The notes below the pieces were generated by a model. The model was not told where the DNA came from and did no database searches. It was given only the letters and a program-made list of their open reading frames with translations. From positions 62,001 through 126,000 of the forward strand of contig JACRNL010000007.1 in assembly GCA_016234935.1 (NCBI GenBank): a stretch of 64,000 nucleotides of DNA, in the 5' to 3' direction. Below, piece after piece: positions 1,776 through 63,028 of this stretch; the stretch's first letter is position 1; each line of letters starts with the position of its first letter. The position numbers and the translations under genes are program-made. The DNA is from Deltaproteobacteria bacterium (lineage in GTDB: Bacteria; Desulfobacterota; GWC2-55-46).

Positions 1776-3296
1776 ATGCAAGTGGATAGTTTCATCAGGA
1801 GATGTGCGCCTTGCATCAGGACTGCTGTTTTTTTACAGCTGCTGTTCGTATTATCCGCTGCCACTCTTCATGCCTCCGAATTAATGGACAAGGGCATAAA
1901 GGAGTTCAGGGCGGAGAACTTCGAAGAGTCGCTTGTTATTTTTAAAAAGGCGCGGCAGGAGGAGCCGGACAACTCCGTTGCCGCCTATTATCTCGGTCTT
2001 GCCTGCAAGCATAGCGGGCTGATGGTTGACGCGGTAGAGAACTTCAAGGCTGCGGTCAGCCTGACGCCGGCGGTGCAGGACGCCTATCCTGAGCTTGTGG
2101 ACAGTCTCTACAATAATAACGAGCTTCAGGAAGCGCGCATATGGATAGCAAAGGCTGAAAGGGAAAATATTCTGCCGGGCCGCATGGCCTTTTTAAGCGG
2201 TATGGTCTTCGCGAAAGAGGGCAGGAATGCCGAGGCCATCGCCGCTTTCGAGAAGGCCGGGAAACTTGACGAATCCCTCTCGCAGGCGGCGTATATGCAG
2301 ATAGCCATGGCCTATGCCGGCGAGAAAAAGCCCGTCAAGGCAAAAGAGGCGTTAAAGGCCGTTATCACGGTCGCCCCTGACACCGAGCTTGCCTCTTTTG
2401 CGAGGGAGTATGACGCGGCCCTTACCGAGGCCCTCTCGAAGTACAAGAGCTGGCGCTTTAACGCCGGCGTCACATACAGCTACGACGACAATATCGTCTC
2501 CAAGCCCTCTACCGTCATTCCAGGCGTCATCATCTCAGGGGAGAAGGGCTACTACGCCGCGGCCATCTTCAGCGCGAATTACAGCCCGCTTCCAATGGGG
2601 CCGTGGTCTTTAACCGCGGCATATAATGTCTACAGCTCTCACTACCGCAACACGAACAGCCATAACCTGATGAGCCACAGCCTGTCCGTCACGCCGGGGC
2701 ACAGCTTTGATAAGTCCGCGCTGACATTTCCGGTGAGTTACAATTTAGTCTGGCTTAAAGAGAGGCGTTACCAGAGCGTCACGAGCGTGAAGCCGACCTT
2801 CACCATTATGGCAGGCCCGGCCGATATCTTTCAGGCAAGCGCGGGGTTTGCCAGAAGAGACCTTGTGAAGCCGGCGATAGACCCGAATGAGAACAGGAAC
2901 GGCGACGTGTATTCCATGCTTTTGGGCTACATCCATCCATACGCCAACGGCGCCATGGTGAACTTCAGGTATGAGCGGACAATGGACATGACCGATGGGC
3001 GGAATTGGGAAAACGAAGGCGACGAATTAAACCTTGGCGGCATATATCCCGTAACCGGCAAGGTCGGTCTGCTTGCGAACGCCGGCTATATGCAGCAGGA
3101 ATACCAGAAGGAATCAACCGTCTTTCTCAAGTTCAGGCACGACAAGATATACAACAGCTCCATAAGCGCCAAGACGGAGCTGCTAAAGGACCTTAATCTC
3201 ACGCTAACCTACGGCTGGACAAAGGCCGTCTCGAACATACCAGTCTATGATTATAAAAGGAATCACTACACTGCCGGTCTTGATTACAGCTTCTGA
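1776..3296 (+). CDS. TPR plus outer-membrane beta-barrel protein (Slam/DUF560-like)
   Basis: Residues 1-33 form a signal peptide. Residues 34-215 are helical TPR-type repeats (for example NSVAAYYLGLACKH and NAEAIAAFEKAGKL). Residues 220-506 are alternating amphipathic strands rich in Tyr and Asn, starting with FNAGVTYSYDDNI and ending in a terminal Phe (GLDYSF), the usual C-terminal signature of an outer-membrane barrel. A periplasmic TPR domain followed by a barrel of about 290 residues is the architecture of Slam/DUF560 (type XI) exporters of surface proteins. The next gene encodes a giant beta-repeat surface protein, a plausible cargo. The Slam assignment rests on architecture rather than on diagnostic residues; a generic TPR porin is the alternative. 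Confidence 0.7.
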   Translation: MQVDSFIRRCAPCIRTAVFLQLLFVLSAATLHASELMDKGIKEFRAENFEESLVIFKKARQEEPDNSVAAYYLGLACKHSGLMVDAVENFKAAVSLTPAVQDAYPELVDSLYNNNELQEARIWIAKAERENILPGRMAFLSGMVFAKEGRNAEAIAAFEKAGKLDESLSQAAYMQIAMAYAGEKKPVKAKEALKAVITVAPDTELASFAREYDAALTEALSKYKSWRFNAGVTYSYDDNIVSKPSTVIPGVIISGEKGYYAAAIFSANYSPLPMGPWSLTAAYNVYSSHYRNTNSHNLMSHSLSVTPGHSFDKSALTFPVSYNLVWLKERRYQSVTSVKPTFTIMAGPADIFQASAGFARRDLVKPAIDPNENRNGDVYSMLLGYIHPYANGAMVNFRYERTMDMTDGRNWENEGDELNLGGIYPVTGKVGLLANAGYMQQEYQKESTVFLKFRHDKIYNSSISAKTELLKDLNLTLTYGWTKAVSNIPVYDYKRNHYTAGLDYSF

Positions 3297-3347
3297 AAAA
3301 TGACGGTTTTATAAGGGTTTTTAAGGGAAAAAACCGGATAGACAGGC

Positions 3348-3365
3348 ATGTGACTTTAGTCACAT
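3348..3365. promoter_or_regulatory. perfect CRP-type operator
   Basis: ATGTGACTTTAGTCACAT is a perfect palindrome and contains TGTGA-N6-TCACA exactly (3349-3364), the textbook target of cAMP-receptor-type regulators. It lies 132 bases upstream of the FecR giant gene and just downstream of a nucleotide cyclase gene. No Crp gene with an HTH is present in the window. Confidence 0.75.
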
Positions 3366-3420
3366 ACAACAGGCTGGGTTTGATATATGAACATGCTATA
3401 GCATTGATACAAATTAGAGG

Positions 3421-3426
3421 TATAAT
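3421..3426 (+). promoter_or_regulatory. candidate -10 box of the FecR giant gene
   Basis: A perfect TATAAT stands about 65 bases downstream of the centre of the CRP box. At the normal spacing there is no recognisable -35 hexamer. This fits an activator-dependent promoter with the CRP-type protein bound upstream. The assignment is inferential. Confidence 0.45.
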
Positions 3427-3496
3427 TTGCCGATAAAGGGCGATAATTTATCGATTGTGTTTAATTTCGGCAACCTTTTTTTAGGCCGGAGGACTT

Positions 3497-6400
3497 ATGC
3501 TGAACGTCTATAAGAACTACGCCGTCGTGATGATGACCGCGTGGATGCTGGTGTTTGCCGGCATGTGCGCCACCTTTGCCGAGGCCGCCGATATGGTCGG
3601 AAAGTTCACCGCCGTGGAAGGCAAGGTGGACGTCCTGAAGGGAGGCGAGCTTCCGGGCATAGCGGCCCATATAGGCGACAGCGTGGCGGTAAAGGACATT
3701 ATCAGGACAAAGAGCAATTCAAAGGCCGAGATAGTGTTCAATGACAATAATATTCTGCGTCTTGCGCAAAGAAGCCGCATAGACATAAGCGAGTATATAT
3801 CCGAGACCAAGGGCGTCATCAAGCTCCCCAGAGGCAAGGTCGAGGCCGTGGTGCAGAAGAAACTTGCCGGCGTTTCGTCCGATGCCAACCGTTTTGAGAT
3901 ACAGACGCCCAATGCCGTTGCGGGCGTGCGCGGCACGAACTTTTTCGTTACCTATCAAAAGAACATCACAGGGGTCATCGTTAAAGAGGGTGTCGTTGCG
4001 ACCTTCAACCCGAAGTTTCCTGCCGCCGTTGTCACCGTCACCGCAGGCACTTCCACGACGGTTGTGACTTCCAAGCCTCCGACCCCTCCGAAGCCGACCC
4101 CGCCGGCTGAGGTAAAGGCGCTTGAAAAAGATACTGCGCCGGCGCCTAAATCTAAAGACAGCGCAAACGACACCGGCGACAAGAAAGACGCCGGTGATAA
4201 GGGTAGCGTCGGTGATAAGAAAGACACCGGCGATAAGAAAGATACTGGCGACAAGAAGGATACTGGCAATAAGGGTAGCGCCAGCGGCACGACCGGAACC
4301 AGCGGCACAAGCGGCACCAGCGACACATCAGGCACATCAGGCACGACCGGAACCAGCGGTACTTCCGACACAAGCGGCACCAGCGACACATCAGGCACAT
4401 CAGGCACGACCGGAACCAGCGGAATCAGCGGCACGACCGGCACGAGCGATACGGGAGGCACTGTTTTAACCTATACGCCTCCTGTGTTGACGGTTCCGCC
4501 TCCGCCGTCTCCTGCTCCGCCAATTCAGCCGCCGATCACGGAGACTTTTATCATTCAGCAGCCGCCTACGCTGACGATCACGTCTGGTCCGTTGGCTATC
4601 ACGAATAACAATACGGCCGCGTTTACGGTCGTTGCGAGCGCGCCAGCTACATTTACCCTTGATAATGTCTCTGTCACGGATACGGCCCTGCCGGGTGTGA
4701 CGCTTACGGAAGGCGCTCATACCTTTACGGCAACGGCTTATGACGGCTCAACGGGTCTCAGCACGTCGCAGACCTATTCATGGACGACGGACTATACGCC
4801 GCCTGCCGTGACGCTGTCCGGCACGCCCGCGGCCATTACGAATGTAAGCAGCGCGGCCATAGGCGCGGAGGCGACGGATGCCCATGCCGTAACTTACAGT
4901 TATGCTGTTGACAACGGCGCCGCGACATCCATCGCGCCGGTATTAACCGGACTTGGCGAAGGCAGTCACATTTACGCCGTGACGGCCGTTGACGCGGCCG
5001 GCAACGCAGCCACTCAGACCTACTCGTGGACTACGGACTATACGCCGCCTTCCGTGAACCTTACCGGCACGCCCGCGTCCATTACGAACTCTTCCGCCGC
5101 CGATATCGGCGTGTCGAGCAGCGAGACCGCTGCGTATAGCTACGCCCTTGACAACAACGCCGTCGCGTCGCCGATACTTTCCGGCCTCTCCGAGGGCAGT
5201 CATACCTTTACGGTGACCGCGACCGACGCGGCCGGCAACGCAGCGTCGAGCACATACGCATGGACTACGGACTACACCGCGCCGGGCGTGATCCTTACCG
5301 GCGTGCCCGCATCCGTTACCAACCAGTCGGCCGCCAGCCTCGTCGTGTCGAGCAATGAAACAGCCGCATATGCCTATAAACTTGACGGCGCGGCAGTGGC
5401 TTCCGCGAACCTTGCCGGTCTCGGCGAGGGAACGCACGCATTCGAGGTAACTGCGACCGACGCGGCAGGCAACGCCGCGGTGTCGAGCTTTACGTGGACG
5501 ACGGACTATACTCCGCCCGTGTTGGCCCTGACGGCAATCAACCCGCGCAGGGTCACAGGCTCCCCGGACGCATCCTTTACGGATACGGTTACCGACTTAA
5601 ACGGAGTCGCGCTCACTTACGCGAGCGTGGATAACGGCGCGTGGCAGACGGTGTCTAATGACGCGCTCTCGCTTACCGGCCTTGGCGAAGGCATGCACAA
5701 CGCGATATTCTCTGCCTACGACCTTGCGGGCAATATTTCAAATACCGAATCATACGACTGGTTTGTCGGCAACAGGCATTACTTTACAACAGGCTTAGCG
5801 CAGGGAGGCCTTTCCGGCGCGGTTGATTTGACTTCCGAGGGTATCCGGGCGCTTTCCGCAGGGACAATCGGCTCATGGCTTGTCGACATGAGCGGAACGC
5901 ACGGCTACGCCGCCGCAATGCCCGCAACCTTGAACATGCTGTCAGGCGGCACGGCATACGCGGGGGCGGACGCCGTTGCGCCGTTTGACGGCTACTGGCT
6001 TTCCTTCATAACCGCGAACGCGGACAATGCCACGGGGACGCTTCAAGGCGCGTCCAACTTCAATTATCTGTCTACCACCAAGCTCGGCGCCGGTTCCGGC
6101 AGCGTCTCCGGCACATTTGACGCCGCAAACTGGCAGCTTACCGACTACGGCCTTGCCTATGACGCAAACGGCGTGATGCAGCCGCAGTATGTTGAGACGC
6201 CGCTGAAGTTCGTCAGCCCGGTCTCAGGCAACCGCAGCTTCTCCGCGAAGGCCAACTACGGCGGCTATTATAGCAGCGTTGCCGGCTCATACTACTACGA
6301 CTATGCCGTTGTTCCCGGCGCATACACAGGCTACCTTGGTTCCGCCTCGACTTACCGCTATGCCTATCCGGTCTATAACAGTTCATACACTAACTATTAC

Positions 6401-6661
6401 GGCGATGGAAGCGCTGATACGTCCAGCTATTCTTATAACTACTCGACGTGGACCTATTCGTCTTCATCCTCCACATCCGCATGGGACACGACCGTTCCGC
6501 TTTCGTCCATCGTGGCAACGCCGCCGGATGCAGGCTATGCCCTGAGTTACAGCGGCGTATATGCCGAATCCTTGTATAACGGCTCATTTGACGCCCTGTT
6601 TGGCGGCACGGGCGCGCTCGTAAGCGGGGCGCGGTTCCCTTTGGACGGCCACGGCGGCTGA
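3497..6661 (+). CDS. giant FecR-domain surface protein, N-terminal part (frameshifted)
   Basis: The start is set by GGAGG four bases before the ATG. A signal peptide (about residues 1-31, ending TFAEA) is followed by a FecR domain (35-170: EGKVDVLKGG, LRLAQRSRIDIS, NAVAGVRGTNFFV). Next come a low-complexity linker (about 185-335) of GDKKDT and GTSGTSDTS repeats, and five Ig-like repeats (about 355-735), four of them closing with a WTTDYTPP-like motif. A Tyr/Gly/Ser-rich beta region follows. The frame ends early: the bases after 6624 continue the homologous repeat in another frame, so this ORF and the one at 6672 were one gene of about 2,660 codons. The protein is likely exported to the cell surface. 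FecR domains of this secreted type are not the iron-signalling FecR. Biological role unknown. Confidence 0.85.
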   Translation: MLNVYKNYAVVMMTAWMLVFAGMCATFAEAADMVGKFTAVEGKVDVLKGGELPGIAAHIGDSVAVKDIIRTKSNSKAEIVFNDNNILRLAQRSRIDISEYISETKGVIKLPRGKVEAVVQKKLAGVSSDANRFEIQTPNAVAGVRGTNFFVTYQKNITGVIVKEGVVATFNPKFPAAVVTVTAGTSTTVVTSKPPTPPKPTPPAEVKALEKDTAPAPKSKDSANDTGDKKDAGDKGSVGDKKDTGDKKDTGDKKDTGNKGSASGTTGTSGTSGTSDTSGTSGTTGTSGTSDTSGTSDTSGTSGTTGTSGISGTTGTSDTGGTVLTYTPPVLTVPPPPSPAPPIQPPITETFIIQQPPTLTITSGPLAITNNNTAAFTVVASAPATFTLDNVSVTDTALPGVTLTEGAHTFTATAYDGSTGLSTSQTYSWTTDYTPPAVTLSGTPAAITNVSSAAIGAEATDAHAVTYSYAVDNGAATSIAPVLTGLGEGSHIYAVTAVDAAGNAATQTYSWTTDYTPPSVNLTGTPASITNSSAADIGVSSSETAAYSYALDNNAVASPILSGLSEGSHTFTVTATDAAGNAASSTYAWTTDYTAPGVILTGVPASVTNQSAASLVVSSNETAAYAYKLDGAAVASANLAGLGEGTHAFEVTATDAAGNAAVSSFTWTTDYTPPVLALTAINPRRVTGSPDASFTDTVTDLNGVALTYASVDNGAWQTVSNDALSLTGLGEGMHNAIFSAYDLAGNISNTESYDWFVGNRHYFTTGLAQGGLSGAVDLTSEGIRALSAGTIGSWLVDMSGTHGYAAAMPATLNMLSGGTAYAGADAVAPFDGYWLSFITANADNATGTLQGASNFNYLSTTKLGAGSGSVSGTFDAANWQLTDYGLAYDANGVMQPQYVETPLKFVSPVSGNRSFSAKANYGGYYSSVAGSYYYDYAVVPGAYTGYLGSASTYRYAYPVYNSSYTNYYGDGSADTSSYSYNYSTWTYSSSSSTSAWDTTVPLSSIVATPPDAGYALSYSGVYAESLYNGSFDALFGGTGALVSGARFPLDGHGG

Positions 6662-6671
6662 CCCGGCCGCC

Positions 6672-9600
6672 GTGGCGATGATTGGAAGCTATTCATCAGA
6701 CGGCGCGGCCTTGCCCAACCTTTGGACCTCTTACTACGTGGACAGCTACAACTACATAGACGGGACAAACACCACCTATGACGGCGGCGCGTATAAAGGC
6801 TTGTTCGCGGCGGTTGACACAAACGGCGTTATGGACGGAAGGTTTATCGGCCTCTATTTAGACCCTTATGGCAAAACAGGTTATCTGAAGGGCGCGCTCA
6901 CAGGCAATAACTATCAGGAGATAAGCATGTTCTATATGAGCGGAGGCGTATCTGCGACGCAGATGGCCTCCGGCGCCCTGCTTAACCCGGCTGATTTCGT
7001 CAACAACAACATCTGGCGGGACAGCGGCTATTTCACCATGGACGGCTCGTTTGGCGGCGCGGGCGGCGTGGGAGACAAACAGAACTGGAACGGCTACATG
7101 GACACCCTTGCTATTGCGGACTATGAGAACAAGCCGGCAAGCGAGCACTGGGGCGTCTACATGCTTAATACATACGGCGAATATTCCAACCCGGATAACT
7201 CCTCAACGTGGTCTGCAAAGCTCGGCGGCCGCGGCGGGTTCGGCGCGTATAATCTGAACACTTATTACGCCGGCAATTATGGTTATGCCGACGGCGGGTG
7301 GTATGCGTATAACTACAATACGAACCTTAACAGTCTTTGCGGCGACGGATGCAGTAACGCGGCCAGCATCGCGTATTACAGGCCGGGCGCGGCGAATTAC
7401 TACACGGACTACCACGTCGACGGCACGACGTATACCTATGACTACAACACGGGGTTGTCGACCTACGGCACGTGGGACGCCTTTGCGCCGTTGTCGTATG
7501 TCGCCGTTGCGCCTGATTCGGCGTATTCCGGCTCTGACCCCCAGAAATACACCTACGGCAACGGTGACTATGGCTACTGGATAGCGGACATCAAGAACGG
7601 CTCATGGGCCGCCGACGGCAAGGTAACGGGCGATTTAAGCGGCAGGTTCATCACAGACACGAAGCTTGGAACGATAACCGGCGACGCTATCGGCGCATAT
7701 AATCCCGATGGCACGTATCAGCTTGCCTCTCTCGGCACGTGGAGCGGGACACCGCTTACGTTCATGTCACGGATATGGTCAAGCGGCTACTCCACGGACA
7801 TGTACAACTACGCTTCTTATACATACACGGACGGCGGGTCTTATAGCTATAATAACACCGGCAACTACCACGGCTACGTTGAATACTACAGGCCGGGCGG
7901 CGCGAATTACTACACGGGCTACTACAGCGACGGCACGACATATACCTATGACTATTCCACTGGCGTCAGCATATACGGCACCTGGGATATGACGCAGACG
8001 CTCGCGTCTATCCTCGGAACGCCGGTTGACAGCTCAAATGCATCGCCGTCTTCAAGCAAGAGCCATGCGGACTACTTTTCTAACGTATGGACTGACGCAA
8101 TCATGGGCGGCACCGGCGATCTCTGGCACGCGTCAGCGGCAACTCCGGCGTCCGTCACGATGATAGGCGATTACTACCGGGACGCTGCCGCCGCGCCCGT
8201 CCTGTTCAGCGATTACTTCTATAGCTACAATGCCGTCAATAACAGTTACACCACCTATGACAAAGGGGCGTATTACGGCTTCCTTGCAGGCACGGGACTA
8301 AACAACAATCTTAATATGAGCCTGATTGCCCTTTATATTGATCCTTATGGAAATGCGGGCATCCTTAGAGGGTCATTGGCCGGCACGGCCTACCCTGATG
8401 CCGATGTCTTTGAAATGGACGGCGGCATGTATCCCACGCAGGTTGCCGCGAACATCGGGACAACCGCCGCTGACCTGTCTTGGTCCATCTGGCGGGACTA
8501 TGGCTACGGTATGACGGCCGGGTCGTTTAACGGCGCGGGGAGCATGCTCTCCGACAGCTCAAGCCGGCGCAAGGGCTATCTTGATACCATGTCCATAGTT
8601 GCCTGGAATACGAACCTTGCGCAGGGCTGGGGCATATACTCATATGCCGACTTCGGCTCGTTCACCAACCCAAATGATGGCGCGCAAACGTGGTCTGCAA
8701 AGCTCGGCGGGGACGGCGGATTCGGCGCGTATAACCCGGGCGGGGGATTTAGCGGCACACATTATAATTACGGCTACTGGATAGCGGACGTAACCAACGG
8801 CCAGTGGGCAAATAACGGCATATCCGGCAAGTTAAACGGCAGATATATAACCCAAAGGTATCTCGGCGCGATATCAGGCGACATTGCCGGCACGTATGAC
8901 AACGGTACGTGGCAGTATGCCTCGCTCGGCACATGGGAGAACACCGCGCCCTTAAGTCATGTGGCGGATGTATATGCCTACTCGCAGACCACCGCAAGGC
9001 ATGCCGATGCGTATTATACATACGCCGACGGCGGGCATTATTCCTCGTACTTTGATACCGCGGGATTCAAGGCTTCCTCAGGCACGGTCGGGGTTGTGGG
9101 CTACTACAGGCCGGGCGGCGCGTATTACTACGCCTACTACTACAGCGACGGCACGACATATACCTATGACAGCATTACAGGGCTTGGCACAAACGGCACG
9201 TGGGACAAGACGCAGCCGGTTGACGCCTTGGCCTTGTTGCTGACGCCGCTGGATCAGGCAAACGTATCGTCGTCGTGGAGCAATGATTATGCTTATCAGC
9301 AAAATAACGACTACATGCATGCCTATCTCGGCGGCGTAGACAGCCTGTGGGGCGCGGCAAATACCTCTCCTGCCGCGATTACGGCGATAGGGCGGTATTA
9401 CAGTTACTATAACTCCTCTGCGCCGGGCGTTTTCAGCCAGAACTTAAACAGCTATAACTATGCGAACTACACCGGCACCACCTACGACGGCGGGGCGTAT
9501 GCCGGTTATCTCATAGGCTCGACTTCATCAAGCAGGGCGATGAGCGCAAGGCTTGTCGCCCTCTATATAGACCCCAATGGCAACGCGGGCGTCATTAAAG

Positions 9601-11474
9601 GGACGCTTGGCGGCGCGGCATATCCTGACATTCAGGCGTTCGCAATGGACGGCTCCGCGTATCCCACGCAGATGGCGTTGGCGGCGGATATCGGGATAGC
9701 TCCGGAAAACCTGACGAGATCCATTTCTTATGGATGGGATTATCTTAACAGCGCCGGCTCATTCAACGGAAGCGGCTCCATAACCGGCGGCGCGGCAGTT
9801 GACCACATGTCCATAGGCAACGCGTCATGGGGCATATACAAGGCGAATGACTATGGGCTGTATTCAGCGGCTAATCCGGTTTCCGGCGCTAACTTCAGCC
9901 TGACAGGCGGCACAGGCTGCTATGGTTGCGGCGGCTATACGATAGTCCACACCACAGGCACATTTAACGCGGACGAGACCATTACCGGCACGCAGACCGG
10001 CAGGATACTCAGCCTATATGACTTAACGGTTATAGATGGCGACACGCTCGGCGCGTATAGTCCGTTTGACGGCACATGGCAGGCCGTGACAGCGGGCACG
10101 TGGACAACCACCCCGCTTGCCTGGAGCGGCGATGTATACGATAATACGAATTATGCGAGCCTGTACAGCTTTGATTCAGCCAATGGCTGGCTTGACACGC
10201 AAGGAGGTGGTTATGGTTTTATGGGTGACACAACCTCTCTCTGGACAGGGACAGGCTTTACAATGATGGGATCGTATTATGTTTATTATTCATCCAGCGC
10301 ACCATATATCTGGACGCCTGAGATAAAGAACTTTGGCGGCGTGACCACTTTCGCGGGCGCGTATCAGGGCTTTATCAGCGGCGTGTGGAAGGACGAGGCT
10401 ATCAACGCGAAGGTTTACAGCCTCTACATAGACCCTGCAGGCAACGCGGGCATTTTAACGGGTACTGTCACAGGCGGGTATTATCCGCAGTTAAATATGT
10501 TCGATGCAGACGGCACATGGTCGCAGACGGCGTTGGCAACCGGTCTTGACGTCAGCACGGCAAGCGTTAACATTGTTACGTCCGATTATGGGTATAGTAT
10601 GATATCTGCCGGCAGTATTAACGGCTCAGGCGCTATAACAGCGGCAGGAAATGAGATGTTGTCCGTCACCAACTGGAGATACTCCCTAACCGGTCAGGAC
10701 TGGGGTATCTGGAAGTCTTTGGTAGGCGGCACATACACAGGCCCTGCATCTGACATTGCATGCGTTACCGCAGGTTCATGCGACACATGGAGCCTTGATA
10801 CCGTTGTTGACCAATCGTGGCAGGGTACATTCTCCAGCACGCAGACAAACGGCACAAAATGGTCTGATGGCGTTCTTGCCGGTCAAACAACCGGTTTTGG
10901 CGCAGATATCAGAACCACGCCTCAGACATGGATAACCGTCGGCGAGACTGTCGGCACCTTTGACCCGGCCAGCGCCACCTTCGCGGCTGTTAATAGCGGG
11001 GTTTACATGGATATAAGGAAGGTGCTTGACCTTGCCGCGACAACCAACGGGCAAGCCCTGCTGACAAGCCTTAAAATTCCGGCTGTCGAGGTCGGCAGGA
11101 CGAACCTTGGCGGCTCGTGGACAAACGGCACGGACAGCATGACCGCCAACATGAACAACGTCGTCTTCCTCGCGCCTGTTACGGGAGCGGCCCCGGCGAT
11201 ATGGGGCTCCAATGCCGTGAACGGCGGCTATGCGGGCAATCCTTCCGCCGCCAACGTGGCCATGTCAAACGCGGCTGCCAATATAAACGCCAGCTTCGCG
11301 GTCAAGGCATGGGATACGACGAGAAACACATGGACGTCGGCCATAAACGGCGCGGCCAACGCGGGGGCTTTAAGCGGATATGGCGGCGCAGTGAACTTCA
11401 AGGGCGCGGGCGCCGGAGCGATAGACCCGGCCACAGGCACATTCAGCGGCACAGCGGCAGGAATCGCGAAGTAG
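6672..11474 (+). CDS. giant FecR-domain surface protein, C-terminal part (tandem beta-repeats)
   Basis: It opens at a GTG with no ribosome site and no signal peptide, because it is the continuation of the 3497 ORF in another frame. Reading this frame upstream gives LWTATAADPAAVAMIG, matching LWHASAATPASVTMIG (near 8125) and LWGAANTSPAAITAIG (near 9347). The region contains about four long imperfect repeats starting near 6620, 8100, 9330 and 10220. Each has a MIG-YY opening, a Y-DPxGxxG motif and a W-SAKLGG-like strand. The motif YYRPGGANYYTGYYSDG recurs three times. The last 250 residues end in Gly-rich strands (AVNFKGAGAGA, GTFSGTAAGIAK) reminiscent of the small barrels of TbpB-type surface proteins. 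The composition is extremely rich in Tyr, Gly, Asn and Ser. No enzyme motif seen. Confidence 0.75.
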   Translation: MAMIGSYSSDGAALPNLWTSYYVDSYNYIDGTNTTYDGGAYKGLFAAVDTNGVMDGRFIGLYLDPYGKTGYLKGALTGNNYQEISMFYMSGGVSATQMASGALLNPADFVNNNIWRDSGYFTMDGSFGGAGGVGDKQNWNGYMDTLAIADYENKPASEHWGVYMLNTYGEYSNPDNSSTWSAKLGGRGGFGAYNLNTYYAGNYGYADGGWYAYNYNTNLNSLCGDGCSNAASIAYYRPGAANYYTDYHVDGTTYTYDYNTGLSTYGTWDAFAPLSYVAVAPDSAYSGSDPQKYTYGNGDYGYWIADIKNGSWAADGKVTGDLSGRFITDTKLGTITGDAIGAYNPDGTYQLASLGTWSGTPLTFMSRIWSSGYSTDMYNYASYTYTDGGSYSYNNTGNYHGYVEYYRPGGANYYTGYYSDGTTYTYDYSTGVSIYGTWDMTQTLASILGTPVDSSNASPSSSKSHADYFSNVWTDAIMGGTGDLWHASAATPASVTMIGDYYRDAAAAPVLFSDYFYSYNAVNNSYTTYDKGAYYGFLAGTGLNNNLNMSLIALYIDPYGNAGILRGSLAGTAYPDADVFEMDGGMYPTQVAANIGTTAADLSWSIWRDYGYGMTAGSFNGAGSMLSDSSSRRKGYLDTMSIVAWNTNLAQGWGIYSYADFGSFTNPNDGAQTWSAKLGGDGGFGAYNPGGGFSGTHYNYGYWIADVTNGQWANNGISGKLNGRYITQRYLGAISGDIAGTYDNGTWQYASLGTWENTAPLSHVADVYAYSQTTARHADAYYTYADGGHYSSYFDTAGFKASSGTVGVVGYYRPGGAYYYAYYYSDGTTYTYDSITGLGTNGTWDKTQPVDALALLLTPLDQANVSSSWSNDYAYQQNNDYMHAYLGGVDSLWGAANTSPAAITAIGRYYSYYNSSAPGVFSQNLNSYNYANYTGTTYDGGAYAGYLIGSTSSSRAMSARLVALYIDPNGNAGVIKGTLGGAAYPDIQAFAMDGSAYPTQMALAADIGIAPENLTRSISYGWDYLNSAGSFNGSGSITGGAAVDHMSIGNASWGIYKANDYGLYSAANPVSGANFSLTGGTGCYGCGGYTIVHTTGTFNADETITGTQTGRILSLYDLTVIDGDTLGAYSPFDGTWQAVTAGTWTTTPLAWSGDVYDNTNYASLYSFDSANGWLDTQGGGYGFMGDTTSLWTGTGFTMMGSYYVYYSSSAPYIWTPEIKNFGGVTTFAGAYQGFISGVWKDEAINAKVYSLYIDPAGNAGILTGTVTGGYYPQLNMFDADGTWSQTALATGLDVSTASVNIVTSDYGYSMISAGSINGSGAITAAGNEMLSVTNWRYSLTGQDWGIWKSLVGGTYTGPASDIACVTAGSCDTWSLDTVVDQSWQGTFSSTQTNGTKWSDGVLAGQTTGFGADIRTTPQTWITVGETVGTFDPASATFAAVNSGVYMDIRKVLDLAATTNGQALLTSLKIPAVEVGRTNLGGSWTNGTDSMTANMNNVVFLAPVTGAAPAIWGSNAVNGGYAGNPSAANVAMSNAAANINASFAVKAWDTTRNTWTSAINGAANAGALSGYGGAVNFKGAGAGAIDPATGTFSGTAAGIAK

Positions 11475-62468: not shown

Positions 62469-62551
62469 TAGCATGCTGCTGAAAACAACCATGAAGTCAG
62501 GCTTGATGGAAGTATAATGTTTCCTAACGCGTGGATGTTGGAGGTGAAAAG

Positions 62552-63028
62552 ATGATAGAACAAAGGTTATTGAGAGAGATGCAGTTCTTCTCCGATTTTA
62601 CGGACGGCGAGATAGCGACCATATCGAAGATAATAAAGAAAAAAGAGTTCAAGACCGGCGACACCGTGTTCACGGAGTCGGAAAACGGCGAGAGCATGTA
62701 TGTCATCAGAAAGGGAGAGGTCAAGGCCTGCAAGACCGCGCCGGACGGAGAACTCTTTACGCTGACGCTCATGAAGGACGGAGACATCTTCGGCGAGATG
62801 AGCTTTCTTGACGGCAGGCCGCGCTCCGCGTCCATCGTGGCCATATCAGACCTTGAGACCTACGTCCTTGAAAAGTCGGATTTCGAAACGCTCGTCGAGG
62901 CCAACCCGCGCATGACGTATAAGCTCATGCGCAATATCGTCTTTACCATACATTCGATAGTGCGCGGCATGAATTCGAGATACATAGAGATGATCAACTA
63001 TATGTACGGCAGAAAGCGGATGGGGTAA
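62552..63028 (+). CDS. stand-alone cyclic-nucleotide-binding domain protein
   Basis: 158 aa from ATG 62552, chosen because GGAGGTG lies just upstream. A Crp-like beta-roll (about 10-120) has the phosphate-binding cassette FGEMSFLDGRPRSASIV, including the Glu and Arg used to hold cAMP or cGMP. There is no helix-turn-helix, so it does not bind DNA; a C-terminal helix (IVFTIHSIVRGMNSRYIEMINY) may dimerise or bind a partner. It stands inside the nuo operon between nuoG and nuoH, so it may tune complex I or respiration in response to a cyclic nucleotide. The window also encodes a nucleotide cyclase at its left end; that link is inferred. Confidence 0.88.
   Translation: MIEQRLLREMQFFSDFTDGEIATISKIIKKKEFKTGDTVFTESENGESMYVIRKGEVKACKTAPDGELFTLTLMKDGDIFGEMSFLDGRPRSASIVAISDLETYVLEKSDFETLVEANPRMTYKLMRNIVFTIHSIVRGMNSRYIEMINYMYGRKRMG

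Follow-up and report, generated by a model that had tools for sequence, protein, structure and literature searches.

The window, by which we mean the whole 64,000-nucleotide stretch of DNA analysed here, begins with forward-strand genes in the order cyclase, barrel, FecR, so placed that Pfam finds a CHASE2 cyclase, a TPR protein and a FecR protein side by side. The first gene (1–1685, with its start 361 bases before the window) encodes a CHASE2 adenylate cyclase of 681 aa (for the whole gene, Pfam CHASE2 1.1e-64 and Guanylate_cyc 3.2e-23). It carries the class III catalytic motifs FSDVRGFT, KFIGD and MDYTIIGDHVNLCSR, which we take, from general knowledge of the family, to be those of an adenylate cyclase. 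The second (1776–3296) encodes a TPR and outer-membrane-barrel-like protein with a SlipAM/DUF2860-like C-terminus (Pfam TPR_2; SlipAM 6e-7; DUF2860 1.9e-7). The third and putative target (3497–6661) encodes a 1054-aa FecR-domain surface protein with Ig-like repeats (Pfam FecR 3.5e-17, Big_13 3e-16), and is followed on the same strand by a 1600-aa continuation in another frame (6672–11474) that has no Pfam match. The repeat unit of this continuation crosses the junction and extends upstream of its own start in the other frame (6600–6672); judging from the reading frames, the two ORFs are probably one giant surface gene with an apparent frameshift, either an assembly error or a true break. No phosphodiesterase was found among the five genes of the locus scanned with Pfam. 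Far downstream, at 62531–63028, the window also encodes a lone 165-aa protein with a cyclic-nucleotide-binding domain and no HTH, and similar short proteins recur in relatives.

Between the barrel gene and the FecR gene is a gap of 200 bp (3297–3496; 36.5% G+C) that contains the palindrome ATGTGACTTTAGTCACAT at 3348–3365, an inverted repeat with 8-base arms flanking TT and no strand of its own. It has no mismatch to TGTGA-N6-TCACA, which bears out the preliminary description of a perfect CRP box, and none to GTGAC-N4-GTCAC; its core, GTGACTTTAGTCAC at 3350–3363, has the same form as the core found 3′ of the crpA gene in relatives (below), and we annotate 3348–3365 as a predicted CRP-type operator. 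The site had also been described as standing beside the CHASE2 cyclase gene. That gene does carry a CHASE2 domain and class III motifs, but its ORF ends at 1685 and the barrel gene intervenes, so the cyclase does not directly adjoin the site and is one gene further upstream.

A Crp-type HTH is present in two proteins of the genome and a cyclic-nucleotide domain is encoded at seven places. One of the two HTH proteins, encoded on contig C7 (228 aa), is the genome's CRP-like regulator, here named CrpA. It matches Pfam cNMP_binding at 84.5 bits (cut-off 27.5; 5e-24), HTH_Crp_2 at 50.2 bits (cut-off 27; 2.6e-13) and Crp at 25.6 bits (cut-off 21), and its nearest solved chains are CRP/FNR regulators, including Vfr and E. 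coli CAP and also, if the chain identities that we assume are right, GlxR of Corynebacterium glutamicum and the CRP of Mycobacterium tuberculosis, Rv3676. Against the NCBIfam CRP equivalog it scores 135.6 bits, below the cut-off of 266, and we therefore call it 'CRP-like' rather than Crp. Both its pocket motif FGE...PRSA, which is of the cAMP type, and its recognition helix SREVVSR are present in all 28 orthologue loci examined; other than for the arginine, the assignments of residues in this helix are presumed from general knowledge. For the arginine, a CRP-like box has been tied to its presence in the recognition helix (PMC545781, parts considered). The second Crp-HTH protein, on contig C3, resembles FNR: it has a cysteine cluster near its N-terminus and the helix TQETSIR, and by eye has no FGE...PRSA pocket; as read from the encoded proteins, CrpA is the sole HTH-bearing regulator of the genome with a cAMP-type pocket. 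The preliminary description had made its reading depend on a Crp-type regulator with a matching recognition helix, and CrpA, with SREVVSR and the predicted cAMP-type pocket, is such a protein; comparison shows that a CRP-like regulator is encoded in this genome.

The neighbourhood of crpA links the predicted operator form to the regulator. Of 28 orthologue loci, 18 have a perfect GTGAC-N4-GTCAC directly 3′ of the crpA gene; the own genome has it there with one mismatch, and the 300 bp ahead of crpA contain no perfect copy at any of the 28 (a crpA fragment, L225, was excluded from the site-to-control, 3′-element and motif counts). On the own contig C7 (L195:3741–4096), the gap between crpA and the gene that follows the element, an M23 peptidase gene by Pfam, contains GTGATTTTTGTCAC with TAGAAT at class II spacing, and at some loci the left half-site runs into the crpA stop codon, TGA, and takes three of its letters from it. 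Nineteen loci, that of the own genome among them, have the element with no more than one mismatch, and 17 of these show a TAnnnT hexamer at 29.5 or 30.5 bp from its centre; the mean at offsets other than 29.5 is 0.41 loci. Three further genomes (G051, G052 and G053) have an exact site 19–82 bp 3′ of crpA. By this comparison the putative operator form is tied to CrpA, and its position is a stronger link than co-occurrence.

Co-occurrence was evaluated over 40 genomes, the own genome included, in which exact TGTGA-N6-TCACA is found 56 times versus 8 for the reversed control (summed by hand); 29 of the 40 have a CrpA orthologue. We fetched 54 of the 55 exact sites outside the own genome, leaving out one at a contig end. 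In CrpA-bearing genomes 35 of 44 fetched sites were intergenic versus ~20% of bases (p = 6e-17), and in genomes without CrpA 5 of 10 were, a difference that is not significant (Fisher p = 0.10). Over 45 genomes of the class, sites and controls stood at 46:4 with CrpA (27 genomes) versus 24:8 without (18 genomes; p = 0.053), and 7 of those 24 sites belong to a single genome, G044. Since the two p values are 0.10 and 0.053, co-occurrence of site and CrpA alone is a trend, and we rejected it as proof. G044, of the same class, has its seven exact sites, no reversed-control match and no CrpA orthologue at E 1e-40, and its boxes may be read by a different regulator.

Among 45 target-facing exact sites, −10 hexamers peak at 29.5 bp (9 sites) and 30.5 bp (4 sites), a peak that none of 500 shuffle sets reaches and that persists in the 38 sequences left after seven homologues, chosen by eye, were dropped. 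This is the spacing of class II promoters of E. coli CRP, in which the operator is centred at −41.5, class I being at −61.5 (PMC2859248, parts considered). C is dominant at position 6 (39 of the 70 half-sites counted at intergenic sites), which gives GTGAC-N4-GTCAC. Comparison shows, then, a spacing of the class II activator type at predicted sites of this lineage elsewhere than in the window. Some targets are shared between genera, among them a small TPR gene, an MFS transporter, and porin-like and repeat-rich surface proteins; an ACT-like protein recurs as a target within one genus, and a HAMP-type cyclase appears once, in G002. The small TPR gene has exact sites ahead of it in G002 and G020 and its homologue in the own genome has a two-mismatch site upstream; target names were read from sequence with no family search, except that of the own TPR gene (Pfam).

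In all 10 relatives compared, a barrel-gene homologue precedes the close FecR homologue, and a CHASE2-cyclase homologue follows the pair in five; in two of the other five the contig ends there. The site was absent from the 400 bp upstream of the FecR start at the 10 loci nearest by homology (E ≤ 1e-35) and at four weaker ones (L022, L023, L035 and L036), and the barrel-FecR gaps of the 10 relatives hold no intergenic site with two or fewer mismatches. The mechanically assigned FecR start codon is probably wrong at L016, L019 and L021, and in the last of these the assumed start is overlapped by a match with two mismatches. Hence, as far as these 10 relatives show, the site is a feature of this lineage, whose genus is represented in the sample by this genome only. 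Separately, in two relatives (G022 and G015) the elements AGTGACTCATGTCACT and AGTGACTGATGTCACT (L251 and L253) precede a gene for a secreted-looking protein with no Pfam family, divergent from the barrel-FecR operon, and a weaker copy lies near the barrel-FecR pair in G002 (L248).

Taken with the features of the gap, the palindrome is very probably, on sequence grounds, the binding site of a CRP-type regulator present in this uncultured bacterium and its relatives. We favour, with somewhat better than even confidence, the explanation that it is an operator for CrpA, at which CrpA charged with cyclic nucleotide modulates the FecR/Ig-like gene separately from the cyclase-barrel genes. Charged CrpA would probably bind GTGAC-N4-GTCAC; the cyclic nucleotide would come from the class III cyclases encoded in the genome, of which there are three, one of them, with the CHASE2 sensor, two genes upstream of the target. 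At the palindrome CrpA would then modulate transcription of the FecR/Ig-like gene independently of the cyclase-barrel genes, giving a feedback loop in which cAMP alters how abundant its own cyclase's surface partner is. We infer that cAMP is the ligand of CrpA, that CrpA binds at the window site and that the loop operates; of the two signs of regulation at the site, activation seems the likelier, and both feedback on the FecR gene and the earlier suggestion that periplasmic signals act on the surface protein through cAMP are plausible. Counted against this explanation are the lack of standard promoter spacing, the lack of conservation before the 10 FecR orthologues, a single exact site at chance level, an own genome in which no more than 8 of the 21 sites within one mismatch fall in intergenic DNA, a co-occurrence that is not significant and an equivalog cut-off that was missed.

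Several of these points would be accounted for if the palindrome were a chance match and the FecR gene were driven by the TATAAT promoter described below or by read-through from the barrel gene, which we consider unlikely, though to be taken seriously. The copy at 3348–3365 is the only exact TGTGA-N6-TCACA both in the window and in the 2.15-Mb genome; base composition predicts 1.6 exact 16-mers per genome and one is found, so that counting 16-mers by itself gives no excess over chance, and the empty FecR loci of the relatives and the absence of a good −10 at class I or class II spacing point the same way. Arguing against chance, the exact 16-mer arose in 1 of 20,000 dinucleotide shuffles of the 200-bp gap, and for the 12-base, E. 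coli-like form ATGTGA-N6-TCACAT the expectation is 0.08 copies per genome and ~0.01 in intergenic DNA; moreover, CrpA exists and the element 3′ of its gene has the same core. Further TGTGA-N6-TCACA sites, which the preliminary description had proposed to look for, are lacking in exact form, but 21 sites with at most one mismatch occur in the own genome versus 7 for the reversed pattern. Eight of the 21 are intergenic versus 13.6% of bases (p = 0.005), intergenic fractions being approximate since genes were called by our own ORF heuristic. A search with the whole 18-mer returned two other places in the genome, each with three mismatches (C5:7774 and C9:107483), the second inside a predicted gene. 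The match on C5 (~7774–7775; L193:3776), TGTGCCTTTAGTCACA, has the whole CTTTAG spacer in common with the window site; a TATAAT lies 36.5 bp from it, and the gene that it precedes is an LPG_synthase_C gene.

The promoter elements of the gap bear on how CrpA would act. Downstream of the palindrome, as previously described, is a TATAAT (3421–3426, forward strand) for which no −35 box was found; it is the best −10 by sequence and lies 64.5 bp from the operator centre. A weaker candidate −10, TATGAA (3386–3391, forward strand), lies at the class II distance of 29.5 bp and lacks the final T at position 6 that is present in 17 of 19 crpA-adjacent elements. A GGAGG resembling a ribosome-binding site (3488–3492, forward strand; read from the sequence) precedes the ATG at 3497. 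Relative to the start, the operator of a CRP-dependent promoter is expected to be centred at −41.5, at −61.5 or farther upstream. With TATAAT as the −10 the centre would fall at ~ −76.5, off the usual CRP positions, and TATGAA fits in spacing with a weak hexamer; the claim that the gap has the layout of a CRP-dependent promoter is thus not supported, as the TATAAT spacing is of neither class I nor class II and the only class II hexamer is TATGAA. Because TAAAGA is mentioned as a possible weak class II −10 (PMC2859248, parts considered), TATGAA may still serve as one. Given the non-standard spacing, a variant of the favoured explanation, in our judgement an improbable one but with real claims, is that CrpA binds but represses, or only fine-tunes, a site at ~ −76.5 giving no activation of either class. 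The 64.5-bp spacing, which fits neither class of PMC2859248 (parts considered), and the prediction of HcpR as a repressor at some CRP-like sites (PMC545781, parts considered) agree with this variant; the site and TATAAT do not overlap, however, and activator spacing is seen at many predicted CrpA sites in the lineage. No Rfam RNA leader was found before the FecR gene, the matches in the window being three tRNAs only, and folding of the 74-nt leader is no stronger than that of shuffled sequences (z −0.43). At 3427–3480, ahead of the FecR gene, there is a stem TTGCCGA...TCGGCAA followed by CCTTTTTTT.

A different reader of the CRP/FNR family, either the FNR-like protein on contig C3 or an HcpR-type regulator of nitrosative stress, is a poor but conceivable alternative to CrpA. 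The genome does contain a second HTH_Crp_2 protein, both fetched sites of a genome that lacks CrpA (G029) are intergenic, and the HcpR consensus of Desulfovibrio, TTGTGANNNNNNTCACAA, is identical to that of CRP (PMC545781, parts considered), so a rival regulator stays in contention. The C3 helix is TQETSIR, however, against SREVVSR in CrpA, and it is at this place that a CRP-like box is tied to an arginine (PMC545781, parts considered); the C3 protein, by eye, is without the pocket motif; and it is crpA that the GTGAC core adjoins. HcpR of Desulfovibrio is tied to hcp genes and not to a cyclase. That the palindrome is an RNA hairpin terminating the barrel gene is very hard to credit, as an 8-base-arm inverted repeat ~50 bp past the stop is suggestive but no T-run follows and a terminator scan was empty at the site, and we rejected it.

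Beyond regulation by CrpA, we put forward, tentatively and as something rather doubtful, a self-tuning surface-sensing loop in which the CHASE2 cyclase, the TPR-barrel protein and the FecR/Ig-like protein would form one trans-envelope sensor, in line with the proposal for the Campylobacterota cluster, the gene of the surface subunit would in this lineage have gained a CrpA operator, and the cAMP that this subunit helps to produce would set the amount of the sensor on the cell surface. On the same doubtful reading, an uncultured class would more broadly have a cAMP regulon controlling many surface proteins. Distant phyla repeatedly show CHASE2 cyclases alongside FecR and barrel partners, and to our knowledge the signal of such systems is mostly unknown. 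GTGAC-N4-GTCAC, together with the regulator and the spacing, offers a way to list, from sequence, the genes of the cAMP regulon in uncultured relatives, and points to one operon in which the sensor, the cyclase and a candidate target stand together. A literature search found no report on a CrpA regulon in this lineage.

Among characterised systems, E. coli CRP has the same operator core plus A/T flanks (consensus AAATGTGATCTAGATCACATTT; PMC2859248, parts considered) and the −41.5 class II spacing that is also seen at the best predicted CrpA sites, whereas this lineage favours C at position 6, as in GTGAC-N4-GTCAC, and the window site, unlike E. coli class II promoters, has no good −10 at class II spacing. 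GlxR binds the motif TGTGA-N6-TCACA with a cAMP-dependent shift (PMC7999487, parts considered); GlxR and Rv3676 belong to a distant phylum, and their helix is SRETVNK versus SREVVSR in CrpA. A CHASE2 histidine kinase, rather than a cyclase, is paired with FecR in a biofilm operon of Burkholderia (PMC5192318, parts considered). The cluster of CHASE2 cyclase, TPR protein and FecR-domain outer-membrane protein is already described in Campylobacterota, where a phosphodiesterase accompanies it and one pathway is proposed (PMC9239204, parts considered). The same three gene types stand together in the window; the phosphodiesterase of the Campylobacterota clusters has no counterpart among the five window genes scanned, and the parts of PMC9239204 considered give no CRP site before the FecR gene. 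A pathway of Sinorhizobium meliloti consists of the outer-membrane receptor NsrA, the cyclases CyaK and CyaD1/D2 and the CRP-like Clr, whose discussed targets include a FecR-domain protein (PMC7529298 and PMC5498481, parts considered). The Clr box, HGTYHCNNNNGRWACW (PMC5498481, parts considered), is unlike the window site, and in the parts of these sources considered the components are not presented as one cyclase-barrel-FecR operon. The pathway nevertheless depends on CHASE2-domain cyclases (PMC13001267, parts considered) and, like the system proposed here, it has a barrel receptor, inner-membrane cyclases, a CRP-like effector and a FecR-domain target.
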